Below are positions 79 through 20,580 of a stretch of 39,209 nucleotides of DNA, one piece after another. The notes under the pieces were generated by a model that had not been told where the DNA came from, ran no database searches, and saw nothing but the letters and a program-made list of their open reading frames with translations. The position numbers were made by a program, and so were the translations under genes. The stretch covers positions 1-39,209 of IMG/VR virus record IMGVR_UViG_3300025309_000028. One strand, written 5' to 3'. Position 1 is the stretch's first letter. Every line of letters starts with the position of its first letter. Origin of the DNA: a virus.

Positions 79-155
79 GGGTCGTTAGCTCAGTTGGTTA
101 GAGCAGAGGACTCATAATCCTTTGGTCGCTGGTTCGAGTCCAGCACGACCCACCA
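79..155 (+). tRNA. tRNA with CAU anticodon, probably tRNA-Ile2 (lysidine type), less likely elongator tRNA-Met
   Basis: The cloverleaf is complete: acceptor GGGTCGT (79-85) pairs with ACGACCC (145-151), followed by A and an encoded CCA (153-155). The anticodon stem GAGGA/TCCTT encloses the loop CTCATAA with anticodon CAT, and the T arm reads GCTGGTTCGAGTCCAGC. The variable and T arms (TTGGTCGCTGGTTC) resemble E. coli tRNA-Ile2, whose gene ileX also lies near rpoD; this favours Ile2 over Met, but identity cannot be proven by eye. The 3' half (112-155) is shared with the end of an integrase reading frame on the other strand, so it served as the attachment site of an integrative element. Confidence 0.93.
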
Positions 156-11076: not shown

Positions 11077-11235
11077 CCGCCTCGGTGCTTCAAACACCAA
11101 ACAGCATAGGCGGAAGACCGCGCCCGAAAAATGTGGTTTTTTTACGTCCGTAGTTTATCTATGGCCGGGTGTGGGGCTAATAAAATAGCGGCTTGCCGCG
11201 AATATGCCCGCCGACCTATGCCGGTTTGAAGCACC
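11077..11235 (+). ncRNA. C4-like antisense RNA and its target in the leader of rha
   Basis: The upstream part folds as TCCGCCT (11076-11082)/AGGCGGA (11108-11114) enclosing the small hairpin GGTG-CTTCAAA-CACC. Its 12-mer GGTGCTTCAAAC (11084-11095) is perfectly complementary to GTTTGAAGCACC at 11224-11235, and GCATAGGCGG (11104-11113) pairs with CCGACCTATGC (11211-11221) with one bulged A. Two antisense boxes followed by two target boxes ahead of an antirepressor-type gene is the layout of the C4 RNA of phages P1 and P7. Further hairpins (11188-11199, 11242-11258) make this 313-bp gene-poor stretch highly structured. Confidence 0.62.
11131..11229 (+). CDS. Leader ORF, 32 residues, within the C4-like region
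   Basis: The frame MWFFYVRSLSMAGCGANKIA... ends at a TGA overlapping the antisense target boxes, so translation would cross the region blocked by the C4-like RNA. A similar 'FFYVR.L.MAGCGA' peptide recurs, from memory, in leaders of P4- and P1-like Icd/Ash genes. There is no clear ribosome site. In P1 the C4 target also lies at a leader frame coupled to the downstream antirepressor. Confidence 0.4.
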   Translation: MWFFYVRSLSMAGCGANKIAACREYARRPMPV

Positions 11236-11282
11236 TGGCCGCCCACGGCCTTCGTGGGTTGTCCCTTCAAAGGAGCATAGAT

Positions 11283-17131: not shown

Positions 17132-18634
17132 ATGGCTAAAACCCTGAACAATGAACAGAAGAATGAGATCGCCACGACGCGCGACGGGCGCGACATCACG
17201 CGCGACTTTGTCGATGGCATGCCGCTGTTGCCGACCACCGACAAGCTGCTGATGCTTAAGGGCGGCGGAGATCTGCGCATCTACCAGGAAGTGATGCGCG
17301 ACGAACAGGTCAAGGCCTGTTTCGAGCAGCGCGTGCGCGCCGTGGTGTCCAAGCCGTGGGAGGTTCGCCCCGGCGGCAAAAAGCTGGCTGACAAAAAGGC
17401 GGCAGAATTTATCGACGAGCAGCTCAAGGCGATCCGCTTCGACAGCATCACCGAGAAGATGCTGTACGGCGTGTTCTACGGCTACGGCGTGGCCGAGGCA
17501 ATGTATGCCGTGGTGGATGGCCGGGTGGTGCTGGACACGACCCGTGGCGGCATCAAGGTACGCGACCGCAGGCGCTTCGCCTTCGCGCCGGATATGTCGC
17601 TGCGCCTCAAGACATCGAGCAACCCGATGGGTGAGGCATTGCCGGAAAAAAAATTCTGGCACTTCGCCACCGGCAGCGATCACGACGACGAACCCTACGG
17701 CCTCGGCCTCGCGCACTGGCTGTACTGGCCGGTCTTTTTCAAGCGCAGCGGCGTGAAATTCTGGCTGATATTTTTGGAAAAATTCGGCATGCCGACCGCT
17801 GTCGGCAAGTATCAGTCGGGTACGCCAAAGCCAGACCAGGACAAGCTGCTGTCAGCGCTGCAGGCCATCCAGACCGACAGCGCGATCATCTTCCCGGAGG
17901 GGATGACGGCGGAGCTGCTGGAAGCCACGCGCGGCGGAACGGCAGACTATACCGCGCTCTACGACCGCATGGATGCCGCCATCGCCCGCGCCACGCTGGG
18001 GCAAACCGCCAGCACGCAGGGCACGCCTGGCCGGCTGGGCAATGACGATCTGCAAGGCGACGTGCGCGACGACATCGTGCGGGCCGATGCCGACCTGGTG
18101 TGCATGAGCTTCAACGCCACGATCGTGAAGTGGCTGGTCGAGTGGAATTTCCCAGGTGCTGCGCTGCCGCAGGTGTGGCGCAAGTGCGAGGACGAAGAGG
18201 ACAGCAACACCACGGCCGAGCGCGACGAGAAGATCTGCAAGATGGGCTTCAAGCCGACGCTGAAGTACATCCAGGACACGTATGGCGGGGAGTGGGTGGA
18301 GGCAAAGCCGCCGGTTGTTGTAGGAGCCCGCCCTGCGGGCGATTCGCAGGCGGGGCCTGCTCCTACATCGGCATCCTTTGCCGAAGGCGTCCAGTTCGCC
18401 GACCAGCTCGCGCTCGATGCCGCCATCGAGGCGATCGTCCCGGGCGAGTTGCAAGGCCAGGCGAAGGAAGCGCTCAAGCCGGTGCTGGCGATGATCGCCG
18501 CGTCGGCAGACTACGCCGAGGTGCATGACAAGCTGGCCGAGGTGTTCCCGGACCTGGGCACGCAGCAGCTCGAAGAGACGCTGGCGCGTGCCATGTTCGT
18601 GGCCGAGGTGTGGGGACGGTTGAATGCCCGATAA
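17132..18634 (+). CDS. Portal protein, Mu gp29-like (DUF935)
   Basis: The 500-residue protein fits DUF935 portals: LRIYQEVMRDEQVKACFEQR, KFWHFATGSDHDDEPYGLGL, and KFGMPTAVGKYQSGTPKPDQ. It forms the dodecameric ring for DNA entry and exit. Between residues about 396 and 413 a host-type palindromic repeat is read in frame as VGARPAGDSQAGPAPT, a recent insertion in the C-terminal region that leaves the frame open. SD GAGG precedes the ATG; it overlaps the MuF gene by 11 bp. Confidence 0.95.
   Translation: MAKTLNNEQKNEIATTRDGRDITRDFVDGMPLLPTTDKLLMLKGGGDLRIYQEVMRDEQVKACFEQRVRAVVSKPWEVRPGGKKLADKKAAEFIDEQLKAIRFDSITEKMLYGVFYGYGVAEAMYAVVDGRVVLDTTRGGIKVRDRRRFAFAPDMSLRLKTSSNPMGEALPEKKFWHFATGSDHDDEPYGLGLAHWLYWPVFFKRSGVKFWLIFLEKFGMPTAVGKYQSGTPKPDQDKLLSALQAIQTDSAIIFPEGMTAELLEATRGGTADYTALYDRMDAAIARATLGQTASTQGTPGRLGNDDLQGDVRDDIVRADADLVCMSFNATIVKWLVEWNFPGAALPQVWRKCEDEEDSNTTAERDEKICKMGFKPTLKYIQDTYGGEWVEAKPPVVVGARPAGDSQAGPAPTSASFAEGVQFADQLALDAAIEAIVPGELQGQAKEALKPVLAMIAASADYAEVHDKLAEVFPDLGTQQLEETLARAMFVAEVWGRLNAR
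18319..18367. repeat. REP-like palindrome inserted in frame in the portal gene
   Basis: TGTAGGAGC (18319-18327) and GCTCCTACA (18359-18367) bound a GC-rich interior with CCCGCCCTGCGGGCG-type self-complementarity. 'TGTAGGAGC.GGC..GCCCGCGA' repeats are widespread in Pseudomonas and other proteobacteria as REP elements moved by RAYT transposases. Here the element adds about 16 residues without breaking the frame. Confidence 0.75.
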
Positions 18635-19964
18635 GGTCGATCTGTCGGTAGCGTTCGGCCTTCCGCCGGAAAAAGCCATCGAGTATTTCCGCTCCAAGGG
18701 CTACGCCATCACCTGGGATTGGCGCGAGCTGTGGCAGGAAGCGCAGGCCCGTGCGTTCACGGTGGCCAAGGTGATGCGCAGCGACATCCTTGAAGACATC
18801 CGCGGCGCGGTGGACGATGCGTTAAACAACGGCACCACGTTACGGGACTTCGAGAAAAATTTAACGCCCGTCCTGCAGGCCAAGGGATGGTGGGGGCGCA
18901 AGCTCGCCTCCGAGGTGGATCCGTCCAAGCCCGATCTGGTCGATACGGCGACCGGCGAGATCAAGACTGTCCAGCTGGGCAGTCCGCGCCGCCTCAAGAC
19001 GATCTACCAGACCAACCTGCAAACCGCCTACATGGCCGGACGCTACCGCTCGATGATGGAAAGCGCGGACAGCCACCCGTACTGGCAATACGTCGCGGTG
19101 CTTGATGGGCGCACCCGTCCCATGCACCGCGCCATGAACGGCCGCGTGTTTCGCTACGACGATCCGTTCTGGCGGAGCCACTACCCGCCCAACGGCTTCA
19201 ACTGCCGCTGCCGGGTGACGGCAAGGTCGCAGAGCGCCATCGAGCGCGACGGTATCAAGCCGGACAGTTCGGAAGGTCGGATGGTCGACCACGAGATCCG
19301 GATGAAGGACGGCAGCACCGTCCCGGTCAAGGCGCTGCGCGTGAAGGTCGACGGGCAGGACAAGCTATTCGCGCCGGATGCGGGCTGGAGCTACAACCCC
19401 GGCGCTTCGGTGTTCGGCAACGACATCGAGGTGATGCGCAAGATCGGCGCGGTCAAGGATCGCGCCATCCGCGTGCAGGCCGTGCAGGCGATAAACAACT
19501 CAGAGCTGCGCCACCAGGTGTTCGCCAACTGGGTGGGCGGCGCGCTGGCCAGGCGCGCGCCAGGACACGACGCGCAGGTAGTCGGCTTCGTGGCCGAAGA
19601 TATCGCCGACTTCGCCAAGGCGCATGGCGGCGAGGATGCAGCCCGCGTGCTGGTGCTGCCGGAGAAGCGGCTGATCCATGCCGACAGCGCCAAACACCAG
19701 GCCGAAGGCATCGCGCTCACGCTGGCCGAATACCAGGCGCTGCCGCAGATCGTGGCCAAGCCCGACGCAGTGTACTGGGACACGCTGCACCGCAACCTGG
19801 TGTACGTGCGCGCGCAGGATAGCGGCGAGACGATCTACATCCCGGTGGATGCGGAGGCTGCTGTGAAGAAGCACGGCAAGCTGGATGCCATCGTGAACGC
19901 ATACCGATTGCCGGCGGGCGATACCAGGCTGCAGGATGGGGAAAGATTCGTGAGGATGGAGTGA
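18624..19964 (+). CDS. MuF head morphogenesis protein with probable C-terminal nuclease (BECR-type) domain
   Basis: Residues 1-240 match the Mu gp30/SPP1 gp7 family: a helical N-terminus, IYQTNLQTAYMAGRYRSMME, and the terminal HYPPNGFNCRCRVTARS motif. The last ~130 residues (FVAEDIADFAKAHGGEDAAR, VYWDTLHRNLVYVRAQDSGE and TIYIPVD) resemble the phage-encoded Barnase/EndoU/ColicinE5-RelE-like nuclease domains found fused to MuF proteins. MuF proteins are carried in the virion, so the domain could be delivered into the host. The nuclease assignment is by pattern; catalytic residues are not proven. Confidence 0.88.
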   Translation: MPDKVDLSVAFGLPPEKAIEYFRSKGYAITWDWRELWQEAQARAFTVAKVMRSDILEDIRGAVDDALNNGTTLRDFEKNLTPVLQAKGWWGRKLASEVDPSKPDLVDTATGEIKTVQLGSPRRLKTIYQTNLQTAYMAGRYRSMMESADSHPYWQYVAVLDGRTRPMHRAMNGRVFRYDDPFWRSHYPPNGFNCRCRVTARSQSAIERDGIKPDSSEGRMVDHEIRMKDGSTVPVKALRVKVDGQDKLFAPDAGWSYNPGASVFGNDIEVMRKIGAVKDRAIRVQAVQAINNSELRHQVFANWVGGALARRAPGHDAQVVGFVAEDIADFAKAHGGEDAARVLVLPEKRLIHADSAKHQAEGIALTLAEYQALPQIVAKPDAVYWDTLHRNLVYVRAQDSGETIYIPVDAEAAVKKHGKLDAIVNAYRLPAGDTRLQDGERFVRME

Positions 19965-19965
19965 A

Positions 19966-20041
19966 GGTCGGCGGCGGGACTCGAACCTGCATACTTCGCT
20001 GCAGTGCAGTTTAGCCATTACCCATCGGCGGACAGCCGACC
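19966..20041 (-). other. tRNA-like fold, possibly a degenerate tRNA, antisense behind the MuF gene
   Basis: Read leftward, GGTCGGC and GCCGACC form a 7-bp acceptor-like stem (9 bp with the flanking AA/TT). GCC-GATGGGTAAT-GGC gives a D arm, and GCAGG-TTCGAGT-CCCGC a T arm with one mismatch and the canonical TTCGA loop. Total length is 76. The anticodon arm is not convincing (only two or three pairs around ACTGCACTGCAG) and no CCA is encoded. It starts one base after the MuF stop and ends 26 bp before gpG. It may be a tRNA relic, tRNA mimic or structured spacer. Confidence 0.5.
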
Positions 20042-20067
20042 TTGCTGCAGCCATTATGGGGTGATCG

Positions 20068-20580
20068 ATGTTTGAAATCAAGATTGAGGCGAAGAGCGTA
20101 ACTGGCATGCTGGCGCAGGCCGCGCATGGGATGGAGGACGCCTCTCCCCTGATGGCGTCGATCTCCACCGAGCTGCACAGCCAGACCGAGGATAATTTCG
20201 CCGCAGAAGGCCGCCCGAAGTGGCTGGGCATCCAGCCGCGCAAGGGGCGCGAAGGCGGTCAGATACTGCAAGACACCGGCCAGCTCGCCGCCTCGATCAG
20301 CACCGGCAGCGACGCTACCAGTGCCACCATCGGCAGCAACAAGGTCTATGCTGCCATCCACCAGTTGGGCGGAAAGACCCGTCCGCATGTGATCCGGCCG
20401 CGCAACAAGCAGGCGCTGGCGTTCGGCGGCCGCGTGGTCAAGTCGGTCAATCACCCAGGATCAAATATCCCGGCCCGCCCCTTCCTGCCGGTCAACGCCG
20501 AGGGTAACCTGCAGCCGGAGGCGGAACAGGGGGTGATGGACGTGGCGAACCTGTACCTGTCGCGTCTTATCGGCGGGTGA
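20068..20580 (+). CDS. Phage virion morphogenesis protein, Mu gpG-like
   Basis: The 170-residue protein matches the gpG / tail completion family: SISTELHSQTEDNFAAEGRP, WLGIQPRKG, ILQDTGQLAASI, YAAIHQLGGKTRPHV and IPARPFLPV. In Mu, gpG is needed for head and tail joining or tail completion. GGGGTG nine bases before the ATG may be the ribosome site. It is the last gene of late module 1. Confidence 0.92.
   Translation: MFEIKIEAKSVTGMLAQAAHGMEDASPLMASISTELHSQTEDNFAAEGRPKWLGIQPRKGREGGQILQDTGQLAASISTGSDATSATIGSNKVYAAIHQLGGKTRPHVIRPRNKQALAFGGRVVKSVNHPGSNIPARPFLPVNAEGNLQPEAEQGVMDVANLYLSRLIGG

Follow-up and report, generated by a model that had tools for sequence, protein, structure and literature searches.

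The stretch of viral DNA considered here, referred to as the window, is the whole of IMG/VR record IMGVR_UViG_3300025309_000028 (positions 1 to 39,209; 39,209 nucleotides (nt)) and belongs to a Mu/B3-type transposable phage. Directly behind its gene for MuF, a minor head protein with a predicted RNase domain at its C-terminus, lies a 76-nt tRNA-like element on the opposite strand. Judged from comparison with related phages, this element is probably an immunity (antitoxin) RNA for the virion-borne C-terminal nuclease of MuF, most plausibly in the form of a tRNA decoy without an anticodon. Such an antidote role appears to be the best explanation because the RNA is kept only together with the key residue of the nuclease, has a conserved tRNA-like fold, possesses its own promoter and has an anticodon arm that is capped.

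Structure of the tRNA-like element

The MuF gene ends with a TGA stop codon at 19962-19964 and is followed by a gap of 103 nt before the next gene, gpG. The element lies on the minus strand of this gap, beginning one base beyond the stop. An earlier note, made from the sequence alone, had described a 76-nt antisense element at this place with acceptor, D and T arms and a poor anticodon arm, and each part of that description is borne out by the features below.

19966..20041, minus strand: tRNA-like RNA element, 76 nt (72.1 bits with covariance model R1, whose training set contains the window copy; covariation; conserved place and strand)
20035..20041, minus strand: 5' strand (GGTCGGC) of a perfect acceptor stem of 7 base pairs, pairing with 19966-19972 (sequence and covariation)
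20014..20029, minus strand: D arm, GCCG-ATGGGTAA-TGGC, with tRNA-type A14 and GGTA (sequence and invariant bases)
19999..20009, minus strand: capped hairpin CTGC-ACT-GCAG in place of the anticodon arm, with no 7-nt loop (loop survey)
19974..19990, minus strand: T arm, GCAGG-TTCGAGT-CCCGC, with one A.C mismatch (sequence, elbow bases and covariation)

Taken on its own, the window copy provides weak evidence. ARAGORN, one of the checks that the earlier note had proposed, calls no tRNA at the element, nor in 16 loci; the best Rfam match is to tRNA-Sec at 22 bits, below threshold; and the fold z-score is -0.59. The comparative evidence, that is the conserved position and strand, the covariation, the relatives that pass the Rfam threshold and the RefSeq annotation, is decisive.

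In an alignment of 18 sequences, 95.8% of the acceptor- and T-stem cells are paired, a percentage inflated because tRNA-likeness guided the choice of sequences and each was cut to the limits of its acceptor stem. The compensatory changes are still beyond both types of control: they occur at 11 of the 12 pairs of these stems, with 40 doubly changed cells compared to 9.3 +- 2.6 after shuffling (0 of 500 shuffles reach it) and 3-10 in slid controls, so that the covariation which the earlier note had asked for is present. Moreover, A14, the GGTA of the D loop and the TTC.A..C of the T arm, together the set of bases that forms the tRNA elbow, are invariant in 31 diverse elements. The minus strand has 14 G.U pairs against 6 A.C pairs, a modest sign that this strand is the RNA.

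The anticodon arm is different. Of 44 elements, one of which (L119) does not follow a MuF gene of this type, 42 form a hairpin in this region whose loop is 3-6 nt long (GCAA, GAAA and UUCG among the loops), and a 7-nt loop occurs in only one. In other words, the RNA retains the body of a tRNA and not its anticodon loop: acceptor, D and T arms with the elbow bases are present, while the 7-nt loop is missing and, in the window, no 3' CCA is encoded, the 3' strand of the acceptor (GCCGACC) being followed by TTCAC. A tRNA body of this kind would be a natural competitive inhibitor.

Conservation of the element in related phages

The MuF protein served as the query for relatives in viral and genome contigs, and the C-terminal domain was used in a later search. 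Loci with a complete C-terminus of the window type have a gap of ca 100-120 nt before gpG, and all except three (L012, L014 and L071, see below) have a minus-strand element of this kind therein; MuFs that end after ~260-300 amino acids are mostly followed by gaps of 0-11 nt. The search with the C-terminal domain added dozens of relatives with the element at the same place and on the same strand, which answers the question, raised in the earlier note, of whether it recurs behind other MuF genes. Two scans that took no account of the protein and looked in viral contigs for short D-arm/T-arm patterns gave further elements antisense behind MuF genes just 25-38% identical to that of the window, together with ordinary tRNAs, chance coding matches and two sense-strand groups. 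R1 finds 54 matches in 511 kilobases (80 loci), many of them to sequences outside its training set and all antisense at MuF 3' ends except for the sense-strand groups L119/L129/L141 and L134/L136, and it gives exactly one match in each of the whole records of three phages (G009-G011).

Weak R1 scores require caution. Matches at 43.7-47.3 bits in 16 of 369 gammaproteobacterial genomes proved to be genuine tRNA-Gly or tRNA-His genes, such that R1 alone cannot tell weak members from tRNAs, and position and strand are also needed. Similarly, a simple structural scan yields chance matches, and comparative evidence alone was therefore used.

Among isolated phages, a gap bearing a tRNA-like or cloverleaf-like antisense sequence is found in Pasteurella phage Pmp9, Haemophilus SuMu and Pseudomonas B3 (by inspection only for SuMu and B3); D108, JBD30, MP29, JD18 and UMP151 have no gap. 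Most relatives, like the window, have a single copy, with a tandem pair in L114/L144 and L271/L272. Four relatives pass Rfam's own tRNA threshold, and at the element of 20 other loci no Rfam family was matched. RefSeq labels the E. coli version 'tRNA-OTHER', on the strand opposite to MuF; among 5426 complete E. coli genomes, 229 contain a match to the locus. Such 'tRNA-OTHER' features in Mu-like prophages are probably not tRNAs.

It is in this context that a captured tRNA, whether functional or decaying, has to be considered, since tRNA-Gly is the host RNA closest to the model and the relatives above the Rfam threshold, as well as the RefSeq label, point the same way. Nevertheless, 43 of the 44 elements are without a 7-nt anticodon loop, the window encodes no CCA, the antisense place behind MuF is fixed, stem pairing is maintained through compensatory changes and the RNA is lost along with the nuclease histidine (see below), all of which make such an origin very improbable as an account of the element. 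The earlier note had also listed a relic of a captured tRNA and a processing signal; neither is favoured, given that selection maintains the fold, that the RNA has a promoter to itself and that it is lost where the histidine is lost. The resemblance to tRNA-Gly is a lead to the target of the nuclease, not proof of it.

Two groups of sense-strand sequences were also seen. In L119 (1178-1250, minus), L129 (428-500, minus) and L141 (3802-3874, plus), the sequence is a comparable tRNA-like RNA whose anticodon arm has a UUCG-type cap, placed a few hundred bases downstream of a gene resembling that of a phage minor capsid protein. Those of L134 (4949-5032, plus) and L136 (3782-3957, minus) belong to a larger unrelated phage, with ARAGORN silent in L134, and were set aside from the family as probably degenerate tRNAs.

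Promoter and direction of transcription

Immediately upstream of the element, close relatives share the minus-strand sequence TTGATT-N17/18-YATAAT, which in the window takes the following form.

20053..20058, minus strand: -10 box of the antisense promoter, CATAAT (TATAAT in most close relatives; upstream comparison)
20076..20081, minus strand: -35 box, TTGATT, with a 17-base-pair spacer, within the coding start of gpG (upstream comparison)

Over 40 distinct upstream regions the mean sigma70-like promoter score is 8.95 of 12, as against 7.03 after shuffling (p 9e-8, an optimistic value because several of the regions are mutually related). From the end of the -10 box to the first acceptor base the median distance in these regions is 8.5 nt, from which transcription would begin at about the acceptor stem. 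In some relatives (L238, L247 and L262) a hairpin resembling a terminator, seen by inspection, separates the element from MuF. The best explanation of these features is that the element is a small RNA gene with a promoter of its own, directed against the late operon.

The antisense orientation and a promoter that overlaps the start of gpG would equally be expected if antisense transcription, or the RNA itself, restrained the MuF/gpG part of the late operon in cis, by a type I-like mechanism or by transcriptional interference, which would prevent premature synthesis of the nuclease. Control by base pairing would, however, have no need of a covarying tRNA-like fold or invariant elbow bases, and the RNA sits where the toxin gene ends, away from its ribosome-binding site. 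Regulation in cis is considered unlikely. For an antidote, on the other hand, the opposite orientation would suit an RNA that lysogens produce during silence of the late operon.

The predicted nuclease domain of MuF

18624..19964, plus strand: MuF gene, minor head protein, with an N-terminal Phage_Mu_F domain at residues 58-198 (Pfam Phage_Mu_F 4.3e-29; PHROG 220, minor head protein and DNA pilot, 2e-114)
19452..19961, plus strand: MuF_C/PBECR-type predicted RNase domain, residues 277-446 (AlphaFold confidence 95.4; MuF_C in 26 of 37 members; hhalign 93% to PBECR3-like group)
19677..19679, plus strand: codon of H352, presumed catalytic (the only invariant residue in 37 domains)
19896..19898, plus strand: codon of N425 in the VNAY motif, presumed active site (conserved in window-type domains)

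The earlier note had likened the C-terminus of MuF to BECR-type nucleases. Family profiles assign it to the MuF_C group, which is counted among the PBECR predicted RNases (PMC5512222). MuF_C is matched by 26 of the 37 family members at E <= 0.01 (best 1.6e-14), and hhalign links the family to PBECR3-like domains with a probability of 93%. The likeness is less clear in the window itself, where the domain scores 22 bits against MuF_C (cut-off 27.6) and the PBECR3 match is also weak. The C-terminal 170 amino acids are modelled by AlphaFold at a mean predicted local distance difference test score of 95.4, with H352 as residue 76 of the model inside helix 71-77, and the model matches predicted phage proteins, some of which are named nuclease or MuF C-terminal domain. 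An alignment of the type-B domains was too diverse for a scan of the collection. Known BECR toxins frequently cleave tRNA or rRNA (PMC5512222).

Coupling of the RNA to the histidine

The relationship between nuclease and RNA was assessed in 65 non-redundant MuFs with this domain, where a gap was counted if it was at least 60 nt. Frameshifted, truncated and cut-off genes were left out, as was L178 because its motif alignment is ambiguous, and the histidine alone was used because the asparagine, part of a first version of the table, aligns differently in type-B domains. An RNA-sized gap is present in 52 of the 53 MuFs with the histidine, the sole exception (L058) probably being due to a spurious open reading frame (ORF) in the gap, and in none of the 12 without it (D108, D3112-like and JD18-like). 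The Fisher value is 3e-12, ignoring relatedness. The C-terminal-domain query favoured intact domains, which gives more intact cases but does not inflate the association. In a tree built from the N-terminal part of MuF, both traits change 8 times with coincident changes, and independent pairs agree in 4 of 4 cases on well-supported branches and in 8 on all branches. Close groups offer the same contrast: B3 has the intact motif and the RNA and JD18 neither, at ~61% identity; L302/L321 differ likewise from D108 at ~72% identity; and, for the PBECR2 type, RR1-B and RcapMu differ from UMP151.

Several points weigh against an antidote for a MuF nuclease. A Foldseek search of the AlphaFold model against the PDB returned nothing at E <= 0.001, such that assignment as a BECR nuclease by fold search is unsupported and the nuclease fold rests on the profile families and on Iyer et al. 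(PMC5512222). Four supported independent pairs are too few for significance (p 0.125), and the histidine and the RNA could have been lost together through swapping of a single cassette. Finally, L012, L014 and L071 have a MuF ~70% identical to that of the window and keep the histidine and the same antisense promoter with a different sequence in the gap. In these loci (MuF stop 4311, gpG from 4420) that sequence could fold as another cloverleaf, and the RNA seems to have been replaced.

Given that MuF is a head protein and that the RNA is retained only alongside an intact nuclease domain, an alternative is that MuF binds the RNA and that the RNA is then packaged or has a role in the virion, where it might serve as a cofactor, in assembly or as cargo delivered along with the nuclease. 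No precedent for this was found in MuF phages, a role in assembly would not need the catalytic histidine, and D108 and others assemble without the RNA; a virion role is accordingly rated as less likely even than control in cis.

The RNA folds as a tRNA-like body, with acceptor and D/T elbow, in which the anticodon loop is swapped for a capped hairpin. As an antidote, it would be present in lysogens and in infected cells and would protect the producing cell by occupying the nuclease as a tRNA decoy that cannot be cut, and lysogens may also be protected against MuF injected by superinfecting relatives. Sequence comparison shows the RNA family with its fold, elbow bases, missing anticodon loop, promoter signal, strand and place behind MuF, as well as the coupling to the histidine; nuclease activity, tRNA as the target, expression in lysogens, binding, neutralisation and injection of MuF are inferred from these. 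The decoy or RNA immunity which the earlier note had offered as one option is well supported by the indirect evidence of histidine coupling, own promoter, conserved fold and capped anticodon arm, and the interpretation in that note as a whole is partly supported. Colicins D and E5 are BECR-type tRNA anticodon nucleases that are countered by a tRNA-mimicking inhibitor, their immunity protein; that inhibitor is a protein, whereas the candidate here is a tRNA-like RNA.

Comparison with known systems

By its protein architecture the system is one of the MuF polymorphic toxins (PMC5576092; Apk2/IapK, PMC12226406). The window has the MuF domain, the position directly 3' of the portal gene and the C-terminal toxin domain, and it shares with that group a head protein of a temperate phage and an immunity determinant immediately behind the toxin gene. 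The known or proposed immunity of such toxins is a small protein, whereas here an antisense tRNA-like RNA occupies that space. Small immunity ORFs have been proposed for MuF toxins, yet there is no room for one between MuF and gpG, and none is found directly behind MuF in the window. The PBECR/MuF_C predicted RNases (PMC5512222) are the same domain group, with no associated RNA mentioned there; Mu's copy is called inactive in that work, which fits Mu's lack of the RNA.

In type III toxin–antitoxin systems (ToxIN, CptIN and TenpIN; PMC5086642) a structured non-coding RNA directly neutralises an endoribonuclease, as the element would do here, and some loci here have tandem copies. The type III antitoxin lies upstream of the toxin in one operon with a Rho-independent terminator between them (PMC5086642). 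Here the RNA is downstream on the opposite strand, with no shared promoter or intervening terminator order, and there are one or two copies, not a repeat array. Moreover, the type III RNA is a pseudoknot, where this one is a cloverleaf with covarying acceptor and T stems and elbow bases (no pseudoknot search was made), and the toxin here is a domain of a virion protein whose model has no match to ToxN-type structures by Foldseek in the PDB. Because operon order, repeat array, pseudoknot and toxin fold all differ, the element is not filed under type III. The antisense RNA of a type I system pairs at the translation start of the toxin, whereas the element lies one base past the toxin stop. AbiF and RCd22 of a C. 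difficile prophage (PMC12373285) are alike in that a phage-borne toxin is neutralised by a structured RNA through RNA–protein contact; the toxin family and the RNA fold are unrelated, and AbiF is not a virion protein.

The literature searched, which did not take in most subscription journals, yielded no description of a tRNA-like RNA associated with MuF or found in Mu-like phages, in keeping with the earlier note's view that the pairing had not been described. It may be that a new class of RNA immunity is at hand, in which transposable phages counter their injected head-borne nucleases with a tRNA decoy, encoded antisense and without an anticodon loop, PBECR2 and PBECR3 types each have an antisense RNA antidote of their own, and toxins of this group are as a rule neutralised by RNA and not by protein; this is advanced only tentatively. 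An RNA antidote that goes with an intact nuclease would account for the survival of phages that carry the nuclease and would point to tRNA as its target. Candidate pairs of toxin and RNA that lend themselves to direct tests occur in many phages, among them the classic laboratory phage B3.

Other gap sequences and the surrounding genes

Behind other MuF types, several of them PBECR2 (L054, L056, L068, L080, L215, L217 and L220), the gap has an antisense promoter-like sequence and, in several cases, a terminator-like hairpin at the MuF stop. These gap RNAs are not tRNA-like, and the sequence may be a parallel antisense RNA. Behind PBECR3-like MuFs (L063, L084, L074 and L219, the last being Haemophilus phage SuMu with a clear PBECR3 match) there are antisense sequences with tRNA-like acceptor and T arms, which R1 does not detect.

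The genes on either side of MuF in the window, in the order portal, MuF and gpG, follow the order of Mu (Pfam).

17132..18634, plus strand: Mu-type portal gene, upstream of MuF (Pfam Portal_Mu 4e-106)
20068..20580, plus strand: gpG-type virion morphogenesis gene, the far border of the gap (Pfam Phage_tail_S 4e-23)

A normal tRNA-Met gene lies at the left end of the window (79-155, plus). Copies of the Rfam family sRNA-Xcc1 (RF02221) are found in the window at 11163-11248 (plus) and in the Mu-like loci L033 (572-660, minus) and L236 (3957-4038, minus).
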